Shown piece by piece: positions 1 to 55,822 of a stretch of 56,069 nucleotides of DNA. The notes under the pieces were generated by a model. That model was not told where the DNA came from, did no database searches, and saw nothing but the letters and a program-made list of their open reading frames with translations. Each line of letters begins with the position of its first letter. The stretch's first letter is position 1. The stretch is from Deltaproteobacteria bacterium (GTDB lineage Bacteria > Myxococcota_A > Polyangia > Polyangiales > JADJMO01). Where the stretch lies: contig JALHOE010000032.1 of assembly GCA_022843175.1 (NCBI GenBank), positions 1 to 56,069 of the forward strand. The letters are read 5' to 3'. The translations under genes were made by a program, and so were the position numbers.

Positions 1-288
1 TGCGCCGACGACGCGGACGCCGGCCGGGGCCGCCGGAGTGGATCCGGCGCCGCGCATCCGGCGCGCCAAGGGGATGGCAGCGACGAGCAGCGCCGCCGCG
101 GCCAGGGTGACCGCCGTCACGATCCCAGCGCGCCGCCTGCGACGCAAAACGGCGTTGGCAACGATCGAGTCGCCGATGACCTCGAGCATCGCGTCCACTT
201 CCTGGTCGCTACGGCCGGGTACCGCGACGGGGTTGTCCCTGAGGACTCTCGTCGCGGTCTCGCTGAGGCGCTCGCGCGGCTCGGTCAT
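1..288 (-). CDS. FecR-like anti-sigma factor, module A (3' part missing)
   Basis: Only the first 96 codons lie in the window; the gene continues beyond the left edge. The start ATG at 288 overlaps the stop of the sigma-factor gene by four bases (ATGA), the same junction seen in modules B and C. The visible part has a cytoplasmic head (MTEPRERLSETATRVLR), an Arg-rich stretch and one membrane segment (about residues 54-72, TAVTLAAAALLVAAIPLA). Its head resembles the module B protein at 3699-4805 (VAVP...RS, a run of Arg before the membrane segment) and likewise lacks a Cys/His zinc motif. By analogy the missing part should be a periplasmic FecR domain that restrains the partner sigma factor. 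The role is inferred from the paralogue and operon position. Confidence 0.7.
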   Translation of the reverse strand, partial: MTEPRERLSETATRVLRDNPVAVPGRSDQEVDAMLEVIGDSIVANAVLRRRRRAGIVTAVTLAAAALLVAAIPLARRMRGAGSTPAAPAGVRVVGA

Positions 289-1001
289 CGCGTCCTCCGT
301 TCATTCGAGGAATCCGAGAGCAGGGCGCGGAGCTCCCCATCTCGTTCGATGCGCTCATGCAACTCCGCTCGACCGCGGACGAGCCGGCTCTGAGCTGCCG
401 CGACGGTGACCTCGGTGATCTCGGCGATCTCTCGGAGATCGTACCCACACACGTCGTGCAGCACGACGGTGAAGGCCTTGACCGGATCCAGCCGCTCGAG
501 GTGGGTGCGAACCCGCCGGAGGAGGCTCCTTCGCACCGCGTCGGCTTCCGGATCGCCGCTCGGGACCTCGAGCCGATCCTCGCCGTCCATCACCAAGAAC
601 ATGCTGTCACGGCGCCGTCGCTTCAGCTCCCCATAGACGACGTGCGCGGTGACACGCGAGGTCCACGTATCGAGTGAGCACTCACCGCGGAACGTTGCGA
701 TCGAACGGATGGTCTCGATGAACGAGAGCTGCGCGAGCTCCTCGTGCTCGCGATCGTCACGTCCGAGGAGCCGCACGATGGTGCGATCAATCACCGGCGC
801 CAAACGCAGGTACACGGCCCGCGCCGCGCTGCGATCGCCGCGGCCGAGTGAGGCGAGCAGCTCGGTGTCGTCGAGGACGGGGTTCTCGCTCCCGCCCCCC
901 GGAGAGGGGGCGGAGGGGAGGGAAACCGAACCTCGCTCGAATACGGCGCTCGAGACCAGCTGCAGGGCAGGTCGAGTGTGCGGGCGCCTCGCCTCTGACA
1001 T
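285..1001 (-). CDS. ECF-type RNA polymerase sigma factor, module A
   Basis: A 238-residue sigma-70-family factor of the extracytoplasmic-function type. Region 2 is visible as DREHEELAQLSFIETIRSIATFRGECSLDTWTSRVTAH in pieces (the ELAQ.. and FRGECSLDTW stretches), and region 4 as DLREIAEITEVTVAAAQSRL followed by a basic helix (RGRAELHERI), the usual -35-binding helix-turn-helix. It is a clear paralogue of the factor at 3019-3702 (shared CGYDLREI/EGYDLREI and AAAQSRLVRGR). The start at 1001 is chosen because upstream in-frame codons lack sigma-factor similarity and because a promoter-like motif lies immediately before it; an mRNA starting there would be nearly leaderless. The stop overlaps the FecR-like gene by ATGA. 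Its target genes are unknown; the divergent barrel gene is an obvious candidate. Confidence 0.85.
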   Translation of the reverse strand: MSEARRPHTRPALQLVSSAVFERGSVSLPSAPSPGGGSENPVLDDTELLASLGRGDRSAARAVYLRLAPVIDRTIVRLLGRDDREHEELAQLSFIETIRSIATFRGECSLDTWTSRVTAHVVYGELKRRRRDSMFLVMDGEDRLEVPSGDPEADAVRRSLLRRVRTHLERLDPVKAFTVVLHDVCGYDLREIAEITEVTVAAAQSRLVRGRAELHERIERDGELRALLSDSSNERRTR

Positions 1002-1006
1002 CGCAA

Positions 1007-1039
1007 AGGATAGTAGCGATCTCGAGGTCGTAGCAGGCA
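1007..1039 (-). promoter_or_regulatory. Putative ECF autoregulatory promoter, module A
   Basis: On the minus strand TGCCTGCT (1039-1032) is followed after 17 bases by ACTATCCT (1014-1007), six bases before the sigma-factor ATG. The module B sigma gene has TGCCTGCT, 17 bases, ACTATTCT in the same place. Two paralogous genes keeping both boxes at one spacing, with unrelated spacers, is what a self-activated ECF promoter would look like. This is inference from two sites only. Confidence 0.5.
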
Positions 1040-1241
1040 CCGCCGGAGCGCGCGACGCCCGAGAAGTGGCAGGTGTGGGCACGACGTGCGCCTCGAGCCG
1101 AACCGTGCTGTTTCCAGGCTCCAGTGCCGTTCCCTCTGCGGTATCTTGATGCGGGGCCAGCGCTGCACCCGCGTCGCCGGCGTCCGGTACGGGTGCACGA
1201 ACCGGGTTTGACCTTGGACTGTCCAGGGGGTCAGCGTTCTC

Positions 1242-2204
1242 TTGTCCGCGTCGCTCGTCATCGTCTTCCTCGTCGCGAGCAGCGAAGCGCACGATCCGGA
1301 AACGGTCAGCGCGACCAGCGTTACGCGCGAAGGTCTTGGTCCGAGCGCGGTAGTGGTGGTGCGCGAGGTCGACATCGTGCCGCCCGATCCCGATGCGATG
1401 GCGCTGGCGACGAAGCTTTCGGCGGATGCGCTCGTCGAGATCCGCTGGTCGGGCAACGACCACAGTCACGTCACTGTGCACGTGCTCGTCCGCCGCGACG
1501 CGCGCTGGGAAGACCGGGAGCTTGATTTCGCGCCGACGGATGCGCCTTCGGAGCGCGGTCGGACGGTGGGCTTGGCGGTCATCGCGATGTCGCCGGAAGC
1601 CGTGCCGGATCTACCCCCGATTGCGTCCAAGCCTGCAGCGCCGCCGATTGTGCCGCCGATTGTGCCGACAGGTCACCCGGAGCTTCGGCCGCCGCAGCCG
1701 AGCGCTCGGATCCGCGCTTTCCTCGACTCATCGCTAGGAGTAGCAGGGAGCGGCGGGGGCGTTGCCGTCAGTGCCTATGGCGTCGCTCTGGGATTCGGCG
1801 TCCTCCTCGACCGCTTGGTCCTTCGCGCCGGCGCTGCGACCCGTTTGGGGAACCTCACGTCGATCGGAGTCTCGACGTCGACCACGACGCTCGTCGCCGG
1901 GGTTGGGATCGAGGGCGCACCACTCGGCCGACAAGCCTCCCTGTTCCGTGCGCGTCTGCGCGTCGATGCGCTGGCGTCGCGCGACAGCTTCTCTCACAAC
2001 GCTGTTTCTATCGTGACCTGGTCGCCGGGTCTTTCTCTCGCGACGGACGCCGGCTACGAGCTCGGTCGCGGAGCCGCCGCGATGATGGGCGTGGGCGTCG
2101 AGTGGATCGCCCGACGCACGACCGTCTACATCGACAACGTCCCGGCTGCCCGTCCCGGCGCGCTCCGCGTCGTGTTCTCAGCTGGCCTCCGTCTCCAGTT
2201 CTGA
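1242..2204 (+). CDS. Predicted outer-membrane beta-barrel protein, module A
   Basis: A 320-residue protein starting at TTG with a GGGGG ribosome-binding stretch about 12 bases upstream. It begins with a short hydrophobic signal (SASLVIVFLVASSEA). The N-terminal half has a small alpha/beta-looking domain (GLGPSAVVVVREV, EIRWSGND, DRELDF, ERGRTVGLAV), then a Pro-rich linker (about residues 125-150), then a C-terminal half of alternating polar/hydrophobic strands rich in Gly and Ser that ends in LQF, as outer-membrane barrels typically end in an aromatic residue. Paralogues are at 5474-6445 (same domain signatures, also a TTG start) and, more distantly, 53215-54189. Divergent from the sigma gene and 37 bases upstream of the Cys-rich lipoprotein gene. 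No known family name is recognised; the barrel assignment is from sequence pattern. Confidence 0.7.
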   Translation: MSASLVIVFLVASSEAHDPETVSATSVTREGLGPSAVVVVREVDIVPPDPDAMALATKLSADALVEIRWSGNDHSHVTVHVLVRRDARWEDRELDFAPTDAPSERGRTVGLAVIAMSPEAVPDLPPIASKPAAPPIVPPIVPTGHPELRPPQPSARIRAFLDSSLGVAGSGGGVAVSAYGVALGFGVLLDRLVLRAGAATRLGNLTSIGVSTSTTTLVAGVGIEGAPLGRQASLFRARLRVDALASRDSFSHNAVSIVTWSPGLSLATDAGYELGRGAAAMMGVGVEWIARRTTVYIDNVPAARPGALRVVFSAGLRLQF

Positions 2205-2241
2205 CCGGCATTGCCTGCCTGATTCGAGCTACGCTGTACAT

Positions 2242-2934
2242 GTGAGTGCACGAACTCTTTCGATCGCGTTGCTCACGCTCGGTGCGTGCGCCGACGCGGA
2301 GGCGCGCTTCGCGACGCTCGCCGCGCCCCCCCGCGACGCCTCGTCGCCTGGTGACGCCGCAGTCGATGCCTCAGCGCTCGATGACGCAGTCGATGGCGAC
2401 ACCGGGGACGCCTTTCGTCCACCACCACCACCTCCGTCGACTTGCAAGGACGACGCGCTGTGCGTGCCGCTCGGTCTCGTGTGCGATGCTGCGTCCGGGA
2501 CATGCGTCGAGTGCCGAGACGACGCGCAATGCGGTGGAATGCGTCGGTGCGATCTCGCGCTCCACCGCTGTGTCGAGTGCGGGCTGGCAGCCGACTGCGC
2601 GGCCGGCGAGATCTGCGAGGCGACGACGCGACGTTGCGTCAAGAGCTGCCCGAGCGGGGATCCCTCTGTGTGCCCCGCCAGCTCGCCGATCTGCGATCCG
2701 GCGCGTCGGATTTGCGTGTGCGACGCGGTGAGCTGCCCAGCAATGGGCGAGGTCTGCGACGCCGCGAGCGGTCGCTGCGTCGGCTGCACCAGCGACGCGC
2801 ATTGCATGTCGACGACCAACCCGCGCTGCGACCGCGTCCGTGGTGAATGCGTACGGTGCCTATCGGCGCTCGATTGTCCGGCTGACTTGCCACGCTGTGA
2901 CGTGTCCGCTTCGGAGTGCGTGAAGGCGAGCTGA
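2242..2934 (+). CDS. Cysteine-rich repeat lipoprotein, module A
   Basis: A 230-residue exported protein. It starts at GTG with a signal ending in the lipobox LTLGAC, followed by an Asp/Ala-rich linker and a Pro run (about residues 60-66). The rest is a tandem array of units of roughly 22-26 residues with the pattern C-x5-C-x6-CD-x5-C-x-x-C (for example VECRDDAQCGGMRRCDL), with 28 Cys in the mature region. Such dickkopf/EB-like cysteine arrays are common in predicted surface lipoproteins of Myxococcota; their function is not established. Paralogues in this window are at 4812-5474 and 55058-55822, each next to a barrel gene and a sigma/FecR pair. Probably anchored in the outer membrane and disulfide-bonded. 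Confidence 0.75.
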   Translation: MSARTLSIALLTLGACADAEARFATLAAPPRDASSPGDAAVDASALDDAVDGDTGDAFRPPPPPPSTCKDDALCVPLGLVCDAASGTCVECRDDAQCGGMRRCDLALHRCVECGLAADCAAGEICEATTRRCVKSCPSGDPSVCPASSPICDPARRICVCDAVSCPAMGEVCDAASGRCVGCTSDAHCMSTTNPRCDRVRGECVRCLSALDCPADLPRCDVSASECVKAS

Positions 2935-2972
2935 GCAAGCCGCACGCAAGAAATCTGTGCGCGCGGACCGTT

Positions 2973-3005
2973 TGCCTGCTGGGGGCGGATGCAAGGCACT
3001 ATTCT
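2973..3005 (+). promoter_or_regulatory. Putative ECF autoregulatory promoter, module B
   Basis: TGCCTGCT (2973-2980), 17 bases, then ACTATTCT (2998-3005). It matches the module A site in both boxes (one C/T difference) and in spacer length. An ATG at 2989 falls between the two boxes and is therefore an unlikely start for the sigma gene if this is the promoter. Confidence 0.5.
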
Positions 3006-3018
3006 AAAGGTGCCAACC

Positions 3019-3702
3019 GTGCGCGGCTCTCCCCTCCGAAGACTTCGGCTCGTTGCGGGTGAGCGCGAGCCATCGGCCGCTGTTTCCCCCCCTACATTGG
3101 GCCGGCCGGGGCCCTGCACCGACGAGATCGAGCTCCTGACGGCGGTTCGGCACGGCGATCGGGGCGCGGCCACCGAGCTGCATGATCGCGTGCGCTCGGT
3201 CGTTGACCGTACGATCGGAGGCCTGCTCGGGCGCTACGACGCCCAGCATGAGGAGCTCGCTCAGATCACGATGATCGAGCTCGTTCGGTCGCTTGCCCGA
3301 TTTCGTGGCGATTGCTCACTGGATGTTTGGACGATGCGCATCGCCGCGCGCACCGTCTACCGGGAGCTTCGAACGAGAACGCGACGAAAGCGCATCTTCT
3401 CGCTTGAGAACGTCAACGAGGACACCGCGTCGTTCCACGATCTCGAGGCAGATACCGCGCACCGGCAGCTCATCGGTCGCGTCCGCGCGCACCTCGACGA
3501 TCTCGACCCGAACAAGGCGTGGACCTTCGTGCTCCACGACGTCGAGGGTTACGATTTGCGCGAGATCAGTGAGATCACCGGTGTGTCGATAGCCGCCGCG
3601 CAGAGCAGGCTGGTGCGCGGGCGCAAGGAGCTCCATGCGCGAATCGCCAGCGACCCCGAGCTTGCATCGCTTGTAATTGCCGCCGCGGAGAAGACGCCAT
3701 GA
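3019..3702 (+). CDS. ECF-type RNA polymerase sigma factor, module B
   Basis: A 227-residue ECF sigma factor, paralogous to 285-1001. Region 2 carries HEELAQITMIELVRSLARF and FRGDCSLDVWTMRIAA; region 4 carries EGYDLREISEITGVSIAAAQ followed by RLVRGRKELHARI. GTG at 3019 is preferred over ATG at 2989 because the latter sits inside the putative promoter and 3019 has AAAGG eight bases upstream; if 2989 is used the protein is ten residues longer. The stop overlaps the FecR-like gene by ATGA, as in module A. The pair is transcribed convergently toward the module B Cys-rich and barrel genes. Confidence 0.85.
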   Translation: MRGSPLRRLRLVAGEREPSAAVSPPTLGRPGPCTDEIELLTAVRHGDRGAATELHDRVRSVVDRTIGGLLGRYDAQHEELAQITMIELVRSLARFRGDCSLDVWTMRIAARTVYRELRTRTRRKRIFSLENVNEDTASFHDLEADTAHRQLIGRVRAHLDDLDPNKAWTFVLHDVEGYDLREISEITGVSIAAAQSRLVRGRKELHARIASDPELASLVIAAAEKTP

Positions 3703-4805
3703 CCGAACTACAAACCCCTCCGGCAAGCGATGCCGCTCGTTTACTTCGGGCGGCTGCCGTCGTAGCCGTCCCCGCTCCCTCCCGCGACGATCGCGCGCGC
3801 GCGATCGAGAGGCTCGCCGATGAGATCGGGCGTGCCGCCTGGCGAAGGCGTGCGCGGACAGCGGTGGTGGTGGTGCTCGCCTCCGCCGCTGCGGTGACGC
3901 TGTTGTTCTTTGGCGCTCGCGGTCTCCGACCAGCGCCGCGCTCGCCGATCGCGCAGCCCGCCGCACCGGCCCTACCGGTGCACGTTGCCGTGGCCGAGGG
4001 CGGCGGCGGCGTGTCGCTGCTTCGAGGTACCGGAGAGATCGCGCTGCCGGCGGTCCTGGAGCAGGGCGACCGCCTGTTCCGTACCGGTTCGACCGAGCCA
4101 ATCGCTGCGGCGGCGCTCTCTCTCTCCACCGGCACCACGCTGCAGCTGGGAAGCGCCACTGAGGCTCGAGTCGATCTCGCTGATGCGATGCAGCAGGTGC
4201 TCCATCTCTCGAAGGGCACGCTCGAATCTCACGTCGCGCCCTTGCCAGCGGGCGGGCGGTTCGTGGTTCGCACAATCGACGCCGAGGTCGAGGTGCATGG
4301 CACTCGATTCCGTGTCGATGTGCTCGACGAGCCGCTCGCCGGGTGTACTCCTCGCGCTCGCACGCGCGTGATCGTCTCGGAGGGCGTCGTTGTCGTGCGA
4401 TACGGTGCGACGTCCACAACCCTGGTTGCGGGTGAGGAGCTTCCGCGATGCCACCCTGCCGCGATCGGGCCGAGCGCCATCGCCCCTTCCGGCTCCTTGC
4501 CGGTCACACCGCACAAAGCGGATCCGGCGTCATCCACCGTGGGCAGCGCGCTGTCGATCCAGAACGCGCTCTACGCCGAGGCAATGGACGCCAAGAAGCG
4601 CGGCGACCGCGGCGCGGCGCGACGTCTCCTCGAGAAGCTCGCCGCCGACTATCCGACCGGGCCTCACGCCGAGAGCGCGCTGGTCGAGCGGATGCGGCTC
4701 CTCGATGGAGATGCGGCGCGTGTCGCTGCGAAAGATTACCTCGTGCGGTTTCCCAGTGGGTTCGCGCGCGACGAGGCGCGCACGCTCATCGGCCCGACAC
4801 CGTAG
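3699..4805 (+). CDS. FecR-domain anti-sigma factor, module B
   Basis: A 368-residue single-pass membrane protein. The cytoplasmic head (residues 1-50) is followed by an Arg-rich stop and a membrane helix at about 52-72 (AVVVVLASAAAVTLLFFGAR). The periplasmic FecR domain spans about residues 105-250: LLRGTGEIALPAVLEQGDRL, LQLGSATEARVDL, FVVRTIDAEVEVHGTRFRV and VIVSEGVVVVRYG in order. The C-terminal part (about 285-368) looks like a TPR/YfiO-like helical repeat ending RVAAKDYLVRFPSGFARDEA; the module C FecR protein ends with the same type of motif (AAKDYLDRFPNGFRRREVEQ). FecR proteins normally pass an outer-membrane signal to an ECF sigma factor; here the sensed partner could be the adjacent barrel. 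Confidence 0.8.
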   Translation: MTELQTPPASDAARLLRAAAVVAVPAPSRDDRARAIERLADEIGRAAWRRRARTAVVVVLASAAAVTLLFFGARGLRPAPRSPIAQPAAPALPVHVAVAEGGGGVSLLRGTGEIALPAVLEQGDRLFRTGSTEPIAAAALSLSTGTTLQLGSATEARVDLADAMQQVLHLSKGTLESHVAPLPAGGRFVVRTIDAEVEVHGTRFRVDVLDEPLAGCTPRARTRVIVSEGVVVVRYGATSTTLVAGEELPRCHPAAIGPSAIAPSGSLPVTPHKADPASSTVGSALSIQNALYAEAMDAKKRGDRGAARRLLEKLAADYPTGPHAESALVERMRLLDGDAARVAAKDYLVRFPSGFARDEARTLIGPTP

Positions 4806-4811
4806 CGCGCA

Positions 4812-5474
4812 TCACTTGCATTCCCCCTCGACCGGCTCGCACACCAGATCACTCGCGCCGCAGTCGTACGAGCCCCGGCATTGCGTGCACCGACCTCGCT
4901 TCGTATCGCAGAACGGTTTGTCGGCGGTGCAGGCCGCATCGTTGGTGCAAGCCACGCAGGTCCCGGTCGCGATGTCGCATCGCGTCCGCTCCGAACTGGT
5001 ACAGTCCGGATCACCGAGGCACTCGGCGCAGTACTTCGTACGCGGGTCGCAAATCGGAGCCTCCGAGGAGCAGGTCCCGGCGTCGCCGGGGACGCAGGGG
5101 CGTACGCATCGTCGCGTCGTCGGTTGGCAGCTCTCTTCTGACTCGCAATCGGCGGCAGTGCCGCACTGTACGCAGACGTGCGCCGCGAGGTCGCACCGTC
5201 GCATGTCGTCGGTGCAGTGGGCGTCAGTGAGGCAGGGGACACAGCGGCCGCTGGGAACGTCGCAGTGAAGGGTCGCGACCCGACAATCGTCGTTACGTCG
5301 GCATTGGGTCGCGGAATCGCGGTCGACCGGCACGGCGTCCGAGTGGTCGGGCTCGAGACGCACGGCGCCATCGCACCCTAGCTGGATGCATAAGAACGCG
5401 AGTATGGCGAGCACGACGCGCACGGGGCCCAAGTACTGAGAGTACCCTCCCGACCCGATCGCAAGGCAGCGCAT
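4812..5474 (-). CDS. Cysteine-rich repeat lipoprotein, module B
   Basis: A 220-residue paralogue of the protein at 2242-2934. The ATG at 5474 overlaps the barrel gene stop (TGATG), so the two are translationally coupled; an internal GTG at 5423 would give a tidier signal peptide (RVVLAILAFLCIQLGC, lipobox QLGC). After a short acidic linker come tandem CD-containing units (CRRNDDCRVATLHCDVPSGR, CLTDAHCTDDMRRCDLAAH and so on) that align unit by unit with module A, including the DDMRRCDLA/GGMRRCDLA and ATTRRCV/PTTRRCV segments. It ends seven bases from the convergent FecR gene. No catalytic motif is visible. Confidence 0.75.
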   Translation of the reverse strand: MRCLAIGSGGYSQYLGPVRVVLAILAFLCIQLGCDGAVRLEPDHSDAVPVDRDSATQCRRNDDCRVATLHCDVPSGRCVPCLTDAHCTDDMRRCDLAAHVCVQCGTAADCESEESCQPTTRRCVRPCVPGDAGTCSSEAPICDPRTKYCAECLGDPDCTSSERTRCDIATGTCVACTNDAACTADKPFCDTKRGRCTQCRGSYDCGASDLVCEPVEGECK

Positions 5475-6445
5475 CAGAATCGCGCCCGCAGGCCGAGTTC
5501 GAAGACGAAGCGCAGGCGGGGTACGGTGGCGACCGCCGAATCGCCGACGAACACGCGGGTCGCACCGAACGCGTACTCCGCCCCCACCGCGCCGACCACG
5601 GCCGCGTCGCGCGCTACAGCGAGGGTGCCCTCGGCCATCAGATCAACGCCGGGTATCCAGCGGCTGTCCCGCGAGACGGTATCGGGGCCGCGCGCGCTCC
5701 TCGCGAACGCGTGGCGGAGCAGGAGGAGATCGGCTCGCAGACCCAGCTCGAACGTCGCCGCGCCGTCGGTCGCGATGCGGGAGAGCAGTGGGACGCTGAA
5801 GCCGAGACCCGCCCAAGTCGTCAGCGCGGAGGCACGGGCCGGCGCGATCTCACCCAGACGTGCGCCGACGGCGAGCCGCGCCGACAGCCCCGCCGGGTTG
5901 AACGCACGCGTCGCGAGCTCGCCACCGAGCCCACCTGCGTAACCCGCGACACCGGAGCTCGCCTTGACGACGAGGTCGACAGCAAAGAACGATCGGGGAG
6001 CCACCCGCGGGCTCGGCCGCGGCGCGGGGTTGACCCAAGCGGGCGGCGGCCCCGGCGTGTGCGAGGGTTCGGATTTTCCCTCGGGCTTCTGCGGGGGCAC
6101 CAGTGCCGCCACGGCGAAGCCGACCGCGTACCCCCGTTCGGCCGCCGGGTCGCCGGGATCAAACGTGAGCTCCCTGTCCCGCCATCCGATCCGAACGTGA
6201 GCGTGGAGTCGAGCTCTTCGTCGCATCGCGAAATCGGACCAACTCAGCTCGACGATCGCGGTCGCCGAGAGCACCTCTTCGAGTTGCTCGGCGTCGGCGT
6301 CGGACGGCAGCTGCGCGACCTCGCGAACGATGACCGATGCGTTCGGACCGAGCGCCTCGGCTGCAGATGCGGCGACCGTCGCCATCTCCGGCGCGCGCGC
6401 GTCCGCGGCGCTGACGAGGATGATGACCAGCGCCGGTGTTAGCAA
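5474..6445 (-). CDS. Predicted outer-membrane beta-barrel protein, module B
   Basis: A 323-residue paralogue of 1242-2204. TTG at 6445 is chosen by alignment with the TTG start of module A: both give a short hydrophobic signal (LLTPALVIILVSAADARA). An upstream in-frame GTG at 6568 would add 41 Arg-rich residues with no counterpart. Shared features are ALGPNASVIVREV, VELSWSD, DRELTFDPGDPAAERGYAVG, a Pro-rich linker (about 110-145) and a C-terminal barrel-like half ending RARF. The signature before the linker may be a periplasmic domain. It is coupled by TGATG to the Cys-rich lipoprotein gene, suggesting the two products work together in the outer membrane. Confidence 0.7.
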   Translation of the reverse strand: MLTPALVIILVSAADARAPEMATVAASAAEALGPNASVIVREVAQLPSDADAEQLEEVLSATAIVELSWSDFAMRRRARLHAHVRIGWRDRELTFDPGDPAAERGYAVGFAVAALVPPQKPEGKSEPSHTPGPPPAWVNPAPRPSPRVAPRSFFAVDLVVKASSGVAGYAGGLGGELATRAFNPAGLSARLAVGARLGEIAPARASALTTWAGLGFSVPLLSRIATDGAATFELGLRADLLLLRHAFARSARGPDTVSRDSRWIPGVDLMAEGTLAVARDAAVVGAVGAEYAFGATRVFVGDSAVATVPRLRFVFELGLRARF

Positions 6446-7209
6446 GCGTCGTGTTCCAAATCTTGGGCGGCGGGCGCGGAGGCGTGGTCCGGTCTCATCC
6501 AGCGCATCATGACACGCGCGCCTGAACAACAGCACGCGCTCGCAGGGAGGTACAGACGACGCCCGCACGGAACTTCCGCATCAGGTTGCGGAGGATGCTT
6601 TAGTTAGGTCCCTCGGGCGCATCGGCAGCGAGTGGCGCTCGGGCGAACTTCCCCGGGGTGGCCCGAGACGAGCCGCCGCATTCCTAGACCCAACGGGGGA
6701 CCGATCGGGGGCAGTCTCTCGTGTGGCCGCTCCATCGGCGGGGCGTTCGGCGATAGGCGGCTTGGCAGCCCTCGTCGGCTTCGCGAGGAGCCGAGATGCA
6801 GCGGCTTGGGTGGCTCGTCCGCGAGGAGCCGTATCGCGGCGCACCGACCGAAAGCCGTTGGGACGGTCGCGCTACCACCAATCGGACTCAGAGTCGGTAT
6901 ACGAGGAGCGCGAGTCGGCCGACTTCGAGCATCAGTTTCCTGCCCGGCCCCGCGGGTGGCGCCACTCTCTGCCTTCGCGCGGAGCACGCTCGCGGTCTCG
7001 TTGCCCAGCCTCGACTGAACAGCCCACTGTTGGCGGCGCCGGGTGCGCACGATGGGTTGGCGCGGTGCTGTCGGGAGCGGAACGCCCCTTGCTCGCTTCG
7101 ATCATCGACGAACACAACGACGCGAAATTGCCACTGATAGACGGGGTCACCCTATGCTGAACCATCGCGAGCCTCATCTGCGTCCTCACCGCACCGAGCG
7201 CAGGTTTCC
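6446..7209. other. Intergenic region with no convincing gene
   Basis: A 764-base stretch between the module B barrel and the 52-residue micro-protein gene. Open frames exist in several phases on both strands but none shows a ribosome-binding site with protein-like composition; all read as Arg/Ser/Ala-rich, the usual appearance of non-coding high-GC DNA. The one recognisable element is the hairpin repeat at 6611-6668. GC-rich inverted repeats around 6770-6830 (CGAGGAGCC-type) may be structured RNA or chance. Confidence 0.5.
6611..6668. repeat. 58-bp conserved hairpin repeat, copy R1
   Basis: Matches 14411-14468 at all but five of 58 positions over the block (all differences are transitions), including an uninterrupted run CGGGCGAACTTCCCCGGGG and beyond. 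It contains a perfect stem CTCGGGC (6638-6644) / GCCCGAG (6661-6667) enclosing a loop with CCCCGGGG. Differences do not fall on one codon position, so it is unlikely to be a shared coding segment. It lies about 600 bases before the first 52-residue micro-protein gene. Confidence 0.65.
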
Positions 7210-43686: not shown

Positions 43687-44139
43687 TCAGCCACCGCCGC
43701 TCGGCGCCGGATCGCCGCTCGCTGGCCCCGCGATCCTCGTGGTCGCGCGCTGCAGGGCCATGCCGGCTGCCATCGAGAGGACGAAGAGGATGACCCTCGG
43801 CCCGGTCACAATGCTGACGATCGCGGGACCGGGGCAATAGCCGGCGAGCCCCCACCCGACACCGAACATCGCCGAGCCGGCGACGATCCGCGTATCGATC
43901 GCCGCGCTCTTCGGAACGTCGAACGTATCTGCGAACACGGGCGCCGAGCGACGATGCAGAAGCCGCCGAAGGATTGCGTGCACCGCGATGGCGCCGATCA
44001 TGACGAACGCGAGGCTCGCATCCCACGCGCCGGCGAAGTCGAGGAACCCGATCACCTTTGCCGGCGAGGTCATGCCCGAAACTCCGAGCCCTACTCCGAA
44101 CAGAAGTCCGGCTCCCAACGCGGCGACGTTCGGCCTCAT
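43687..44139 (-). CDS. YeeE/YedE-family half-transporter 2
   Basis: A 150-residue membrane protein of about four helices. Family marks: [20 protein letters not shown] and [20 protein letters not shown], with a Cys in GYCPGP matching the conserved Cys of YeeE thiosulfate importers. ATG 44139 overlaps the partner gene stop (ATGA). Bacterial YeeE is a single chain with repeated halves; here two shorter genes appear to encode the halves. Predicted to take up thiosulfate or another sulfur species through the inner membrane. Confidence 0.85.
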
Positions 44140-44567
44140 TGCGCACCTCCTGCGAGAACATGCCGTACGACGAAGACCGTGATCGCCCCGGTGGCCATGA
44201 AGGTGAGCGTCGCAGCGAGCGAGCGCACCGACAGGCGGCTCAGCCCGCACACGCCGTGACCGCTGGTGCACCCGTTCGCGAGACGCGTCCCGAACCCGAC
44301 GAGCAGCCCGGCCACGACGATCATGCCCATCGTCACGGGAGCCGCGGTGAAGCTCTGCGGCCTTGTGACGCGAAGCAGCGTGCCAGCGAGCACGAGCCCC
44401 GCGAGGAACCACGCGCGGTACCCGCGCTCACCAGAGTTCGGGAGGAAGATCCCACCGAACATCCCGCTGATACCTGCGACCTTTCCGTGCGTGAGCAGGA
44501 GCAGCGAGGCGCTCAGGCCTATCATCGCGCCGCCGAGCAGCGCCGAGAACGGTGTGAAGTCGTGCAT
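44136..44567 (-). CDS. YeeE/YedE-family half-transporter 1
   Basis: A 143-residue membrane protein. The start is decided by the ribosome-binding site: AGAGGA lies six bases before ATG 44567 but directly abuts the alternative ATG at 44573. Family motifs are [16 protein letters not shown] near the N-terminus and [20 protein letters not shown], with the conserved NGCTSGHG Cys plus a second Cys. It forms the other half of the split transporter with the gene at 43687-44139. Confidence 0.85.
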
Positions 44568-44599
44568 GTGCATTCCTCTACTCGAGTTTGCCAGTATGA

Positions 44600-45514
44600 C
44601 TATCGCGAGACGGAATGAGCGGCGCCATCGACGCGAGCAGCTCTGTCACCGGCGAACAGGCGCGGAACAGTTGTGACGAGCAGCGTCGCGACCGCCGCGA
44701 CCACCCACGGCCAGAACGGGGCGATGTGCACTCCGAGCAACGGCGGCACCTCCTGCGCGAGCATGTAGAGCGCCATCACGATGACGAACCAGCCGAACGC
44801 GCGGCGAAGCTTGGACTGATCGACCTTCCCGGCGAGATGACCTCCGACCGCGCTGCCGATGATCGCGAAGAAGGTCAAAGAGAGCAGCAACTTCCAGTCG
44901 ATCGTCGTCGTATAGACGTAGCCCGCGAACCCGGCGAACGACTTCATCGCAATCACCAGCAGCGAGGTTCCCACCGCGACGTCCATCGGCAACCCGCCGA
45001 GCAGCACGAGCGCGGGGACTACGAGGAACCCGCCTCCGGCGCCGACGAGGCCGGTCACCGCTCCCACCACGAGGCCCTCGGCGACCACCTTTGCGATCGG
45101 GAGCTCGCGTTCGACGGCTGCCGCGCCGTCTGCGGTCTTCCTCCCGCGCAGCATCGCCACCGCGGTGACGAACATCATCACCGCGAAGAGCACGAGGAGT
45201 AGGCCGGCCGGAACATACTTCGCGAGCCGTCCCGCGAAGAACGCGCCGACCATCCCGGCGAGCCCGAAGATGATGCCGGTGCGAAAGCGCACGCGGCCAC
45301 GCCTCGCATGCGGGATGAGCGCGCTCGCACTGGTCGCACCGACCACGAACAGCGACGCGGCGACGGCCTGATGCGCCTCGAGGCCGATCACGTACTTCAG
45401 GATCGGAACCGTGAGGATCGATCCGCCACCGCCGAGCATACCGAGGGACACGCCCACCAGCACGGCGAGGAACATCGCGAGGACGAACATGGGCGACCGC
45501 ACTGCACCGGCCAT
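44600..45514 (-). CDS. TauE/SafE-family permease
   Basis: A 304-residue membrane protein with about eight helices and the duplicated family motifs: [20 protein letters not shown] in the first half and [20 protein letters not shown] in the second. Members export or import sulfur compounds (sulfite, sulfoacetate, sulfonates). It is the first gene of the minus-strand sulfur block; in this setting sulfite export is plausible. ATG 45514 has no clear ribosome-binding site; an internal ATG (MFVLAMFL) is possible. Confidence 0.85.
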
Positions 45515-45845
45515 GCCCGTGAATATCTCGGCGAATACTCGGACTTCCCGCGGCTTCGCGAAGCGGAAGTTGTTTCAACCCGCCTTCCTCGCGGGTTTCA
45601 TCGCGTTGCATTCGGAGGGCCGCTGGGTGGCCGGTAACAGCCTCTGCTTTGGTCAGCGTCTCGCGCATCCGGACGGCGACGACAAGGCCGGAAAGCCAGC
45701 GGACGCGCGTCGCGACGCCAATCCGTTATCCGCCGGCGCCGCGGGAATCCTTCATTCATTCGAGCACACAAACACTTTCGTTCGGCCAATGTCGCATCTC
45801 AATCTCCGTTGAGAACGAGCGATGACCGCGAGCATCGCAATTCGC
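45515..45845. other. Intergenic region with two hairpins upstream of the TauE/SafE gene
   Basis: No gene is visible. Two stems lie in what would be the 5' leader of the permease gene: 45544-45569, built round the palindrome GCTTCGCGAAGC and flanked by CTTCC and GGAAG, and 45577-45597, AACCCGC and GCGGGTT with a seven-base loop. No T-run follows on either strand. They could be leader structures or part of a bidirectional terminator; neither matches a known riboswitch. The promoter for the NlpC-like gene to the right is not evident. Confidence 0.35.
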
Positions 45846-51710: not shown

Positions 51711-52646
51711 CTATTTCGCGATCTGCTCGACCTCGCGACGACGGAAGCCGTTCGGAAAGCGATCGAGATAGTCTTTGGCTGCGAGTCGCGCTTCGACCCG
51801 CTTGCCATCGCGCAGCAAGCCCAGAACGCGGAGGTATGACAGATCCTCTTCAGCTGGCGTGACCGACGCAGACACAGGGGCCGAAGTAGCAGCGACGGCA
51901 ACGTTCGCGAGCGAGCCGTGCGGGCCGGTGATCGGCACAACGTTCAACGAAGCGATCGGTTGTGCTGTCGTCGACGGCACTGCGTCGACCGGCCCGAAGG
52001 AGTGACCTGCAGCAACCCGCACTTCCGAGAGCCCACTGCGATGAAAAATGATCTCGCCCTCTTCGACGGCCAGCTCGACGGTCCTGCCGTTGCGCACAGT
52101 GACCCGAAAGGCGGTACCGACGTCCTCGATAATGCCATCGGGCACGTTCACGAAGACTCGGGGGTCCTCGACACGCCGTCGGACGAGGAGCCGCAGGGTT
52201 CCTTCGTTCAGCGTGATCACATCTCGGCCTTCGCTCTGTCTCCGGTGCCACCTGGCCGTGCCGCCGGGGGTCGACACAGTCAGGTATGCCTCGGGCCTTG
52301 CTGTGTTCGCGGGCTGTGCCCTCGGCCACCACACGGTCGCACTCAACCCTGCGACGATTGCGATGATCGGCACAAGCCACTTCGGGGGACGACGCGGCGG
52401 ACGTCCGGACGCCACGCGGTCGGCGTGTTCGAGCGTCTCCCTCCGCAGCCGTCGCAGCGCAAGATCGTCGCGCGTGGCCTCGATCTCGCGAAGCTGACGC
52501 CCCAGCTGCTCCATGAAGCGACGCTCTCGGCCGCACTCGACGCACGCTTCAGCATGCTCCTCGGCGCTCTCTCGCGCGCGGCCCTGCAGGCGGCCGTCAC
52601 GACCCGCCTCGATCTCCCAGGCTCGCGCGCACTTCGACGACTTCAT
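51711..52646 (-). CDS. FecR-domain anti-sigma factor with zinc-finger head, module C
   Basis: 311 residues. The cytoplasmic head has EEHAEACVECGRER, the HxxxCxxC zinc-anti-sigma motif absent from modules A and B. A membrane helix (about 85-105, WLVPIIAIVAGLSATVWWP), a FecR domain (about 120-235: VSTPGGTARW, LLVRRRVEDPRVFVNVPDGI, VGTAFRVTVRNGRTVELAVE) and a C-terminal helical tail ending AAKDYLDRFPNGFRRREVEQ follow. ATG 52646 overlaps the sigma stop (ATGA). The tail matches that of module B, tying the modules together. Confidence 0.83.
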   Translation of the reverse strand: MKSSKCARAWEIEAGRDGRLQGRARESAEEHAEACVECGRERRFMEQLGRQLREIEATRDDLALRRLRRETLEHADRVASGRPPRRPPKWLVPIIAIVAGLSATVWWPRAQPANTARPEAYLTVSTPGGTARWHRRQSEGRDVITLNEGTLRLLVRRRVEDPRVFVNVPDGIIEDVGTAFRVTVRNGRTVELAVEEGEIIFHRSGLSEVRVAAGHSFGPVDAVPSTTAQPIASLNVVPITGPHGSLANVAVAATSAPVSASVTPAEEDLSYLRVLGLLRDGKRVEARLAAKDYLDRFPNGFRRREVEQIAK

Positions 52647-53218
52647 GGCCCCTCCTCGAAGAAGCGACGCATCTCGCGTCGCGCGTGATGAAGCCGCGTC
52701 CACACCGTGCCGACTGGGATGGAGAGCATTGCCGCTATCTCCTCCGCGGTGAAGCCTTCCGCTTCCGAGAGCAGGAGCACTATCCGCTTGGCGTGCGAGA
52801 GCTTCGCCAGCCCTCGCTCAAGATCGGTACGGGACTCCGGCGGCTCGACGGTTGCCGTGCGCCCCTGCCCCGCGAAGGCGAGCAGCGCGGCGGCGAAGCG
52901 ACGGAGGGAACGGCGTCTCTCCTGGATCACCCGCGCAGCGATCGCGAAGAGCCACGGCCGTGCCGACTCCGCGTCAGCATGGAACGTTCCGGCGATGCGA
53001 ACGACGCGAACGAAGGTGGCCTGCACGACATCCTCGGCCTCGACAGCCGAGAGCGCGCGCGTGGCGAAGCCAAGCAACGCAAGCGCGTGCCGATCGTACA
53101 GCGCGCCGAGCGCACCGATGTCGCCGCGCGCCACGCGCGCGATGTCTCGCGCATCATCGGCCGCACTACCTGTGGACGGTGACGGCAAGCCGCGCAGCTT
53201 GCGGATCGCAGCCTTCAT
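52643..53218 (-). CDS. ECF-type RNA polymerase sigma factor, module C
   Basis: 191 residues from ATG 53218, which overlaps the barrel stop (ATGA). Region 2: ALGALYDRHALALLGFATRA, EDVVQATFVRVVRIA; region 4: LSHAKRIVLLLSEAEGFTAE, EIAAMLSIPVGTVWTRLHHA. It belongs to a different ECF subgroup from the A and B factors, which are closer to each other. It is in one operon with its barrel and lipoprotein genes rather than divergent from them. Confidence 0.88.
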   Translation of the reverse strand: MKAAIRKLRGLPSPSTGSAADDARDIARVARGDIGALGALYDRHALALLGFATRALSAVEAEDVVQATFVRVVRIAGTFHADAESARPWLFAIAARVIQERRRSLRRFAAALLAFAGQGRTATVEPPESRTDLERGLAKLSHAKRIVLLLSEAEGFTAEEIAAMLSIPVGTVWTRLHHARREMRRFFEEGP

Positions 53219-54189
53219 CGCCCGCCCCACGTGGCGCCGAGCCCGAGACCGATGCTCCAAGCGGGAAGCGGCGGCAACGCTTCGTCGATACGGATCGTGC
53301 GTCGGGTGCGGGAGGGCGAGATCTCGGCGTCGACGGCGACAGTGAAACGGAGCGCGCGCGGACCGAGGTGCACGCGCCCCACGACGCCGAGTCGCACGTC
53401 GGTCGCCGAGCCGGCACGATCATCGCCGTCCTTGACGTGACTCTGCGACTCGACGAGCAGGAGCGTGGTCGCTCCGACGTCGAGGGCAACCGCATTGGAA
53501 CCCGCGACTCGGCCGGCGACCAAGAAGCCGGTCCCGAAACTATCCATCGCGAGCCCCTCCAGTGTCGAGCGACGTGCGGGCCGTTGCACCGCGTCCCAGC
53601 GCGCGCTCACCCCGACCAGCCAACGACCAACACGCAGTCCGGCGTACGCTGACGATCCCAGCGACAGATACGTCGGCCGGTTGGCGAGCCGCCCCGAAAC
53701 GGCGACGCCGATCTCCATGGTCGTTGTCGCCGGGGCAGCGGCCGCGGACGCCGGCTCTTGCGCGGGCAGCGTCGTCCGGGGCGGCTCGGGGATCGCGACG
53801 GGCGGCGCCTCTACCTCCGGCTTCGGCGATGGAGGCACCGTCATCAGCGCCTCGACGGTCGTGCGCAGATCAGCTCCCGCTTGCAGCCGTCGAACCGCCG
53901 TCCGTCCGTCCTCGAGCGTGACGATCACGATGATCTGATCTCCGCTGGCAATGATGCGCAGGCGCGCCGCGGAGTCGACGCCCGGCATCTTTGCGAGATC
54001 TTCACAGACCCGCACGATGGGCTCGATCCACTTCGAATCGATCTCCCCCTCCAGCCGAACACGCGGATCGACGCAAGCTCCGGCCAGAGCGCGCGCGGGC
54101 CGAGCGCCGATCGAGAACGCAGCAACGCCCGCGAGCATCCAGGAAAGCTCGCGCTCGCGACGGGGCGTTGGGACGGCGGCTCCCCCCAT
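53215..54189 (-). CDS. Predicted outer-membrane barrel protein, module C
   Basis: 324 residues, ATG 54189, sharing one base with the upstream stop (TGATG). The signal (WMLAGVAAFSIGARPARA) is preceded by a basic head. The N-domain (VDPRVRLEGEIDSKWIEPIV, IVIVTLEDGRTAVRRL) plays the part of the small domain of the A/B barrels, followed by a Pro-rich linker (about 135-165) and a C-terminal strand-rich half (YLSLGSSAYAGLRVGRWLVG to SIGLGLGATWGGR). Sequence similarity to A and B is weak, but the layout and gene context match. Confidence 0.65.
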   Translation of the reverse strand: MGGAAVPTPRRERELSWMLAGVAAFSIGARPARALAGACVDPRVRLEGEIDSKWIEPIVRVCEDLAKMPGVDSAARLRIIASGDQIIVIVTLEDGRTAVRRLQAGADLRTTVEALMTVPPSPKPEVEAPPVAIPEPPRTTLPAQEPASAAAAPATTTMEIGVAVSGRLANRPTYLSLGSSAYAGLRVGRWLVGVSARWDAVQRPARRSTLEGLAMDSFGTGFLVAGRVAGSNAVALDVGATTLLLVESQSHVKDGDDRAGSATDVRLGVVGRVHLGPRALRFTVAVDAEISPSRTRRTIRIDEALPPLPAWSIGLGLGATWGGR

Positions 54190-54914
54190 CAATCCTCGTG
54201 CTCGCCTTCCTGCTCTCCATCGAAGCCGTCGTTGCAGCCGTCCACCTGATCGGGTGCATTGTGCTCGGCAACGGCCATCGACTTCGTGGGATCGGCGTCG
54301 GTCGCTTCGGGCGCATCGCCCCCGGCTTCACTCTCGCTCTCGAGCTCAGTCTCGTTTTCGCCCTCGACGCCCTCATCGCAGGATGCTTTCGCATCATCAT
54401 CGGCGCAGGGGGCGCCGGTCCCCTTGACGTTGCCGTCGACGCACTCACCCGCCGCGCCCTCGCCAGCCGCCATGGCACCCGAGGTTCTTGTCGTGAGCGT
54501 GACAGCCAGGGTTGTCTTCGCAGACATCACGAAGCCACCGCTCGGAGCTGCGGTGAGGTGCCGGACCGCCCCGAGCGAGACGAGTGCCCCGCCGGTCTTG
54601 ATCCGGAAGGTGGTGTCGAGGCGCTTGCTTCCGGCTCGCGGAAAGACAACCGGATCGGCCCCCGAAGTGAGCAGTACCGCGAGCGCATAGGTGTGGCCCC
54701 GAAGGAGCTCGAGCCGGAAGCTCCCATCGGGGGCGACTGCGGACCGAACGCGCTTGCCGCGCTCATCCGTCGCCTCCACCGCGCGGGGCGCCGAGGGAAA
54801 CGACGACGCGGCGAGCGTCCCCTGCACCCTGGAGGTCTCGATGGTGGCCTTGCGTGCGCAAGCCGTGGTGAGCGTCGTCGCGACGGCGGCGATGAAGAGC
54901 ATATGGTTCGTCAT
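54189..54914 (-). CDS. Acidic-tailed lipoprotein of module C
   Basis: A 241-residue lipoprotein (signal LFIAAVATTLTTAC). Residues about 25-110 look like a small beta-sandwich of the carboxypeptidase-regulatory/surface type (VEATDERGKRVRSAVAPDGS, FRLELLRGHTYALAVLL). The C-terminal 80 residues are extremely acidic with four Cys (CVDGN, APCADD, ASCDEG, DGCNDG), like a Ca2+- or metal-binding tail. It is the first gene of the module C operon and has no counterpart in A or B. Confidence 0.65.
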   Translation of the reverse strand: MTNHMLFIAAVATTLTTACARKATIETSRVQGTLAASSFPSAPRAVEATDERGKRVRSAVAPDGSFRLELLRGHTYALAVLLTSGADPVVFPRAGSKRLDTTFRIKTGGALVSLGAVRHLTAAPSGGFVMSAKTTLAVTLTTRTSGAMAAGEGAAGECVDGNVKGTGAPCADDDAKASCDEGVEGENETELESESEAGGDAPEATDADPTKSMAVAEHNAPDQVDGCNDGFDGEQEGEHED

Positions 54915-55057
54915 GGGATTCTCCCTCGGGCGTGACGGTCTATTCTGAATCTCTGCCGGCTGCCTCCGAAGCCTTCATTCGGCCACACGTAGCGGCGAGG
55001 AGCACGCATTCTCTGACCGATGAAGGTTTTGCCCCCGAGCGGCAGATACGCCTGAAG

Positions 55058-55822
55058 ATGATCTACCGGAGCGCATTCTGGGGTTGCGGTTGGCTGTTGG
55101 CGGCGGCTGCCGGATGTGGCGGAGCTGTGATCGCTAGCGATGGCTCGGGGGACGCCGCTGCTGACGGCACAGACCTCGACTCGGCCGCTTCTGATTCTCC
55201 GACCGCCGACTCTCCAGCCTCCGACTCGCTGTCCTCTGACGACACCGGCACCCCAGTGGCGGACACCGGGGGCCCCTGCAAGAGCGACGACACCTGCGGC
55301 GGTGCGACTCCTCGCTGTGACACCACAACCGGCCTGTGTCGCGGCTGCACGAGCAACGCGCACTGCTCCGCGTTTGGCCTGTTGTGCGATAGCGCCTCGG
55401 GAACGTGCGTCTCGTGCGTCACGAGCGCGGATTGTCCCGGACCCGGCGCGGTCTGCGACGCCGTGCACGAGTGCACGAGGGCGTGCAGCGCGACGTTGAA
55501 ATGCATGGCGCCGCTGGTTTGCGATCCCGCGACGAGTACCTGCGTCGAGTGCACGACCGACAGCGTGTGTAAGGGCGGGCGCTGCGATCCGATGAGCAAG
55601 ACGTGCGTCGAGTGCCTCACGTCCGCGGACTGCCCGAGTGACGCACCCGCATGCGATCCGCTCGGCCACGTATGCACCACGAAGTGCTCCAAAGAGAGCG
55701 ACTGCACGGCGCTGTCGTTGCACTGCGATGTTGCGAGCGGCGTTTGCCAGGAGTGCACCCGAAACGATCACTGCGGTCCGAAGGGCTACTGCCAGCCGGA
55801 CCGTACCTGTGGCGGCGGCTGA
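55058..55822 (+). CDS. Cysteine-rich repeat lipoprotein, module C
   Basis: A 254-residue protein from ATG 55058, with signal (WLLAAAAGC lipobox) and a long Asp/Ser linker (about 27-72), then tandem Cys units (CKSDDTCGGATPRCDTTTGL, CRGCTSNAHC and so on, some with an extra Cys pair). Aligns in unit pattern with 2242-2934 and 4812-5474. Divergent from the lipoprotein/barrel/sigma operon. Likely a surface-exposed disulfide-rich protein. Confidence 0.75.
   Translation: MIYRSAFWGCGWLLAAAAGCGGAVIASDGSGDAAADGTDLDSAASDSPTADSPASDSLSSDDTGTPVADTGGPCKSDDTCGGATPRCDTTTGLCRGCTSNAHCSAFGLLCDSASGTCVSCVTSADCPGPGAVCDAVHECTRACSATLKCMAPLVCDPATSTCVECTTDSVCKGGRCDPMSKTCVECLTSADCPSDAPACDPLGHVCTTKCSKESDCTALSLHCDVASGVCQECTRNDHCGPKGYCQPDRTCGGG

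Follow-up and report, generated by a model that had tools for sequence, protein, structure and literature searches.

A 56,069-nucleotide stretch of a Deltaproteobacteria bacterium (order Polyangiales; assembly GCA_022843175.1, contig JALHOE010000032.1), here called the window, is the entire contig of a 9.75-Mb draft genome and ends in a gene group that we call module C (positions 51711 to 55822). It holds genes for an extracytoplasmic function (ECF) sigma factor (ecfC), a FecR-containing anti-sigma factor (asC), an outer membrane barrel protein (barC), a lipoprotein (lipC), and a cysteine-rich lipoprotein (cysC). The original prediction, made from the sequence of the window, regarded module C as a third, diverged copy of modules A and B, which lie at the other end of the window. 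We find instead that module C is a member of another widespread cassette, distinct from the A/B type, with a characteristic domain make-up, a small barrel fold, and a conserved candidate promoter in front of both of its transcription units. We propose, with a probability of about 0.6, that it is an autoregulated sigma switch resembling cell-surface signaling, with a small barrel standing where a TonB-dependent transducer would be expected.

All genes of module C hold up as real on reading of the open reading frames, with two start codons corrected. On the minus strand, the operon runs in the order lipC (54189..54914; 241 residues), barC (53215..54189; 324 residues), ecfC (52643..53218; 191 residues), and asC (51711..52646; 311 residues). 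The four leftward genes had been described as overlapping by one or four bases, and the measured values are 1, 4, and 4: a single base between lipC and barC (TGATG, with barC starting at the ATG at 54189) and 4-base ATGA overlaps between barC and ecfC and between ecfC and asC. On the plus strand, cysC (55058..55822; 254 residues) diverges from this operon; its start was corrected from 54932 to the ATG at 55058, the gap between the two transcription units is 143 bp long (54915-55057), and the contig ends 247 bp past cysC.

The core of module C recurs widely. Using a barrel profile to search 318 genomes of the class, we recovered barC homologues in 40 of them and read the DNA around about 60 barrel genes. 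Genes of the ecfC and asC types adjoin the barrel at nearly all of these loci, apart from those cut by contig ends, the order barrel-ECF-anti-sigma is found at 50 loci, and the barrel and ECF reading frames overlap in every one of the 53 barrel-ECF pairs. Retrieval by the ECF factor alone gave 80 loci from the matches listed, most of them with unrelated ECF factors: the 3 with a score of >190 all have a barrel and a matching anti-sigma gene, and the other 77, which serve as a negative control, have a barrel in no case. Because the adjacency at about 60 loci and the converse retrieval agree, we conclude that the barrel, the ECF factor, and the anti-sigma factor are one unit, linked far above chance, in keeping with the original claim that the association is not accidental. 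No paper describing the C-type cassette was found in a literature search that covered few subscription journals and not the main paper on ECF classification.

C-type cassettes also have in common a candidate promoter, TGAAGG-N14-GGCnAAgA. The gapped word TGAAGG-N13-CGGC occurs in 10 of 61 upstream regions, against 0.05 expected; TGAAGG itself is present in 35 of 58 regions, where shuffled sequences gave 4.8; and expectation-maximization on the C-type upstream regions returned TGAAGGtTtc-N10-GGcgAAgA. In a six-fold hold-out, 37 of 58 regions scored above the 99% null, where about 0.6 would be expected. A TGAA-type -35 element followed by a short -10 element is the geometry of ECF promoters. Within the divergent gap, one site faces each transcription unit. 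The cysC site (TGAAGG-N14-GGCAGATA; 55021..55050, plus strand) scores 22.8 when the window is excluded from the training set and is the best plus-strand site in the whole window, the next scoring 11.6; the lipC site (TGAAGG-N14-GGCAGAGA; 54948..54977, minus strand) scores 15.4 under the same matrix.

The specificity of the element was assessed with the matrix on the window, the surveyed loci, and 133 kb of the genome and with International Union of Pure and Applied Chemistry (IUPAC) patterns genome-wide. A score of 22 or more is reached at 34 positions in 710 kb of C-type loci but at none in 805 kb of unrelated loci, in the 205 kb of A/B loci, or in 133 kb elsewhere in the genome. The pattern TGAAGG-N14-GGCAGA has two matches in 9.75 Mb, both in the divergent gap, one facing each side. 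Widening it to GGCRGAKA, a form drawn from our three sites and thus informative only for the absence of others, adds a single site genome-wide, at 45754. For TGAAGG-N14-GGCCAA there are 23 matches in ten cassette-bearing genomes versus 5 in ten cassette-free genomes (3 versus 0 for the reversed control). The regulon looks local: of the five sites in the whole of one cassette-bearing genome (G252), four fall within about 6 kb, in a cluster that contains a Cys-rich gene, another lipoprotein gene, a lipC homologue, and the barrel operon. The cysC site ends 7 nucleotides before the ATG, so that its transcript would be near-leaderless; at many C-type loci, the site likewise lies 1 to 20 nucleotides before a start codon, and many C-type transcripts may have little or no leader.

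The third site (TGAAGG-N14-GGCGGATA; 45725..45754, minus strand) is the best minus-strand site of the window (25.5, with the window again excluded from training) and stands 210 nucleotides before a gene for a TauE/SafE-family permease (44600..45514, minus strand; PF01925, E value of 1.5e-52), downstream of which a Sulf_transp (YeeE/YedE-like) protein is encoded (44136..44573, minus strand; PF04143). The permease is a candidate regulon member, and the pair is possibly a third target in this genome or possibly a chance match; the long 210-nucleotide leader argues for caution, and no TauE/YeeE homologues were found near other cassettes.

The domain make-up of asC combines parts of two anti-sigma types. 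It has a cytoplasmic head of the zinc-binding anti-sigma (ZAS) type, one transmembrane helix (about residues 89 to 107), a periplasmic FecR domain (residues 138 to 199; 52050..52235, minus strand), and a tail resembling tetratricopeptide repeats (TPR). The HxxxCxxC head expected from the original prediction is formed by H31, C35, and C38, which together with C6 are invariant in 28 aligned homologues; HxxxCxxC is present in 55 of 59 C-type anti-sigma factors, and the motif predicts that the head binds zinc and grips the partner ECF factor. FecR is recognized by Pfam in 28 of the 28 homologues and zf-HC2 in 21, and TPR_6/YfiO match in 16, at the C-terminal region where an STN-like subdomain would be; for asC alone, the FecR score is slightly below the Pfam cutoff. 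Against PDB, the asC profile matches PupR (6ovk), DdvA (8rlz), ChrR (2q1z), CpoB, and BamD. One C-type locus (L133, 6438-7379) encodes an anti-sigma factor seemingly without FecR that keeps the zinc head, the transmembrane helix, and the TPR-like tail and adjoins a C-type barrel and ECF factor; it suggests a possible role of the TPR tail as the constant receiver. The product of ecfC carries Sigma70_r2 and Sigma70_r4_2 and falls in its own clade.

The predicted outer membrane partner is a small barrel. barC consists of a signal peptide, a periplasmic N-domain of alpha/beta type that contains C39 and C62, a Pro/Ala linker, and an eight-stranded OmpA-like barrel (residues 153 to 324; 53218..53733, minus strand). 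Our AlphaFold2 model, built from four sequences, has a mean predicted local distance difference test (pLDDT) score of 72.7, with about 81 to 87 in the N-domain (about residues 40 to 118; 53836..54072, minus strand), which is modeled as beta-alpha-beta-beta-beta-alpha and occupies the place expected for a signaling domain. The barrel portion, and only that portion, aligns with NspA, the OprF N-domain, and OmpA at Z scores of 16 to 17; by sequence, the barrel profile matched no chain in PDB. None of 44 barC homologues has a Plug or TonB-receptor match in Pfam. The N-domain has exactly two cysteines in all 44 aligned barrels, C39 plus a second one at residue 62 or in the column of residue 74, and the barrel part has zero or one; judged from sequence, this pair has the pattern of a disulfide.

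The original prediction of an added acidic, Cys-containing lipoprotein fits lipC, which has a lipobox (Cys19), a beta-sandwich-like domain, and an acidic Cys-bearing tail. Its family (n = 18) is represented at 17 other loci that carry an ECF/anti-sigma pair of this type, in most cases immediately ahead of the barrel gene, making it an optional fourth cassette member; the N-terminal part is CarboxypepD_reg-like (a weak match), and the tails are 15 to 40% Asp plus Glu, with two of them His rich. A separate search with lipC alone reached an ECF/anti-sigma pair in another family (G021, L128). cysC has 32 cysteines besides the lipobox Cys, in repeats like those of the TraA stalk. The two proteins nearest to it, at 50% and 49% identity, are encoded beside C-type cassettes of two other genera (genomes G232 and G252), and their genes have the promoter site. 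TraA, the outer membrane exchange receptor, has Cys-rich repeats of similar spacing (E value of 2e-11), but cysC is a short lipoprotein corresponding to part of the repeat region only. As a full-length TraA it was rejected (43 bits versus a cutoff of 750), the match being confined to the repeats.

Taken together in one mechanism, these parts would operate as follows. The ECF factor would be held at the inner membrane by the ZAS-transmembrane-FecR-TPR anti-sigma factor, and the OmpA-sized barrel, which probably senses the cell surface, would receive a signal in the envelope and pass it on through contact of its N-domain, with the conserved Cys pair, to the FecR/TPR part of asC. Inactivation of asC would free ecfC to read TGAAGG-N14-GGCnAAgA promoters. 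One of these would drive ecfC's own operon, lipC-barC-ecfC-asC, giving positive autoregulation; the facing one would drive cysC; and the third may drive the TauE/sulfur-transport pair. The output might serve envelope redox balance or disulfide upkeep.

Module C works like cell-surface signaling and yet is not a member of the FecA type. FecA-FecR-FecI, PupB-PupR-PupI, and FoxA-FoxR-FoxI likewise have an ECF sigma factor, a single-pass anti-sigma factor with a periplasmic FecR domain, and an outer membrane barrel with an N-terminal periplasmic domain, with the genes side by side. In known systems, it is the periplasmic portion of the anti-sigma factor to which the signaling domain of the transducer binds (PMC9249621, PMC11637429); PupR is a FecR-type regulator whose structure was solved with this domain (PMC9249621). 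FecA-type systems, however, use a 22-stranded TonB-dependent receptor with a plug, whereas the C barrel is modeled with eight strands, is OmpA-like, and has no recognized STN domain. Because a TonB-dependent receptor was looked for and is not there, we do not class module C with FecA. Its anti-sigma factor further differs in the ZAS zinc-motif head and the TPR-like tail, and its sigma operon has its own candidate promoter, whereas fecIR is transcribed under sigma70 (PMC9249621). With the ZAS anti-sigma factors ChrR and Myxococcus DdvA, asC shares the C...HxxxCxxC head and the position next to an ECF gene (the 2q1z and 8rlz profile matches), but it continues from this head into a periplasmic FecR-TPR portion and has an outer membrane barrel as its partner.

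FecR-type cell-surface signaling is known with TonB-dependent transducers, and here, at some sixty conserved loci of one class, a FecR-type, zinc-motif anti-sigma factor is paired with a barrel of OmpA size, too small to be a transporter of that kind. The cassette would therefore be a compact, testable case of outer membrane signaling without TonB-dependent uptake. The predicted promoter lets targets be listed in many genomes, and the system supplies one of the many Cys-rich lipoproteins on myxobacterial surfaces with a first predicted regulator.

Some features speak for descent from A/B by duplication. The A/B cassette (window, 0.3 to 6.6 kb; region 1-6568) has the same four gene types, a FecR domain with a TPR tail, and a homologous Cys-rich repeat family (cysC versus cysA and cysB, 35 to 36% identity, E values down to 1e-19). 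Even so, we consider a diverged duplicate highly improbable. A tree of the ECF factors, with outgroups picked by similarity to C, places C and A/B apart, and the approximately unbiased (AU) test rejects a single clade (P = 0.0098; log-likelihood difference, 55.7), in line with the different ECF subgroup noted for C originally. Profile alignments of C-type with A/B-type barrels (hhalign) gave probabilities of 0.5% and 37%, the latter covering barrel strands only, so that there is no clear sign of barrel homology; the structure model of the B barrel (pLDDT of 35) was too low for use. A/B barrels are mostly without cysteines, whereas C-type N-domains always have two; the zinc motif is in 0 of 18 A/B anti-sigma factors tested; the two cassettes differ in gene order; the 205 kb of A/B loci lack the C promoter motif; and cysC is nearer to Cys-rich genes at other C-type cassettes (50%) than to cysA or cysB. 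The matching FecR tails of B and C are real, but their consensus, AxxYLxRYPxGxRRxEA, is the family-wide end of the TPR-like C terminus and is therefore no sign of special B-C kinship. The A/B barrel family forms its own cassette in 44 of the 318 genomes, in the order barrel-ECF-FecR-Cys-rich at most of 20 loci read, so that the Cys-rich gene belongs to the core there and usually directly follows FecR; at C-type cassettes it is an occasional partner of its own subfamily. Similar gene types thus appear to have been assembled around two different ECF lineages, which is what the original note's argument from independent recurrence would lead one to expect. Upstream of A/B-type ECF genes, a different gapped word, TGCCTG-N16-GGTAC, is found in 10 of 21 regions (at most 7 in shuffles) and is a candidate promoter of that cassette. 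That cysC is a mere chance neighbor of module C has in its favor that Cys-rich reading frames are common in these genomes, without overall enrichment near C-type cassettes; given a shared promoter element that faces cysC, with an exact form found nowhere else in the genome beyond the two sites, and two relatives, independent of each other, that are linked to cassettes and also have the site, we hold it to be very unlikely.

Other explanations accept the cassette and differ over what it does. The barrel might be an output rather than a sensor: asC would sense envelope trouble through its FecR/TPR part, and the ECF factor would make more of an outer membrane complex (barrel, lipoproteins, and Cys-rich protein) for repair or remodeling. 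The sigma factor, barrel, and lipoproteins are indeed under the same promoter, TPR tails matching BamD and CpoB could bind envelope proteins directly, and the outputs differ among genomes (Rieske and other lipoproteins, TonB-dependent receptors, and Cys-rich proteins). This account is conceivable but doubtful to us, since the barrel and ECF factor are almost never apart, whereas lipoprotein and Cys-rich outputs come and go, and since the N-domain, in the position of a signaling domain, is conserved with a fixed Cys pair. An unlikely further alternative is a metal response, in which the acidic or His-rich lipC tail and cysC would bind divalent metals and the switch would govern how metals are captured or detoxified on the cell surface. 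The composition of the lipC-family tails and the site before large-protein genes at three related loci (the one scanned is a TonB-dependent receptor) speak for it, but no known metal-binding family is among the parts, mature cysC, its lipid Cys set aside, has an even number of cysteines, as suits disulfides, and other linked genes encode redox proteins (Rieske, cytochrome c, ApbE, and YceI). A redox-sensing switch, in which the N-domain Cys pair would form and break with envelope disulfide or electron supply and the ECF factor would answer with disulfide-rich and electron-carrying surface lipoproteins (Cys-rich here, Rieske in related loci) and sulfur transport, seems to us rather improbable. 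Several results weigh against the signaling switch with a sensor barrel that we favor: Pfam finds no STN domain in the 44 barrels, an alpha/beta N-domain being modeled nonetheless; the lipC site scores below the cysC site; several C-type loci have no recognizable site; three Cys-rich homologues that are more distant and not linked to a cassette lack a strong site; and Cys-rich genes are not enriched at C-type cassettes as a class (0.058 versus 0.044 per kb). Given this absence of class-wide enrichment, we treat Cys-rich genes as an optional output.

The promoter site elsewhere precedes genes for lipoproteins, Rieske proteins, and TonB-dependent receptors, and ApbE, YceI, and cytochrome c genes adjoin the cassette in a few loci. 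At one (L016, 8904-13739), the C-type cassette has a divergent Rieske lipoprotein gene and, downstream, one for an ApbE flavin mononucleotide transferase; a second (L093) also has a divergent Rieske protein gene, carrying the promoter site. In the f6 genomes, Cys-rich proteins are encoded right before C-type barrels (L129, 3166-4110; L131, 2998-4077; L125, 4075-5940); they belong to a subfamily other than that of cysC, and the one scanned matches DUF7107/Dickkopf_N/EB. Related large proteins with their own promoter sites are encoded directly before C-type barrels at L109 (3800-6199), L111 (5400-8003), and L118 (7063-9465), the one scanned being the TonB-dependent receptor mentioned above, with a fused TonB_C domain. 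In genus g79 (L120, L123, and L124), a variant site beginning with CGAAGG lies downstream of the anti-sigma gene, before a gene that reads like inositol-phosphate synthase. Finally, the same genome as the window holds a broken piece of a second C-type anti-sigma gene (L127, G000:C3, 2301-2956; 46% identity), which contains one in-frame stop; no ECF gene was found next to this remnant of another cassette.

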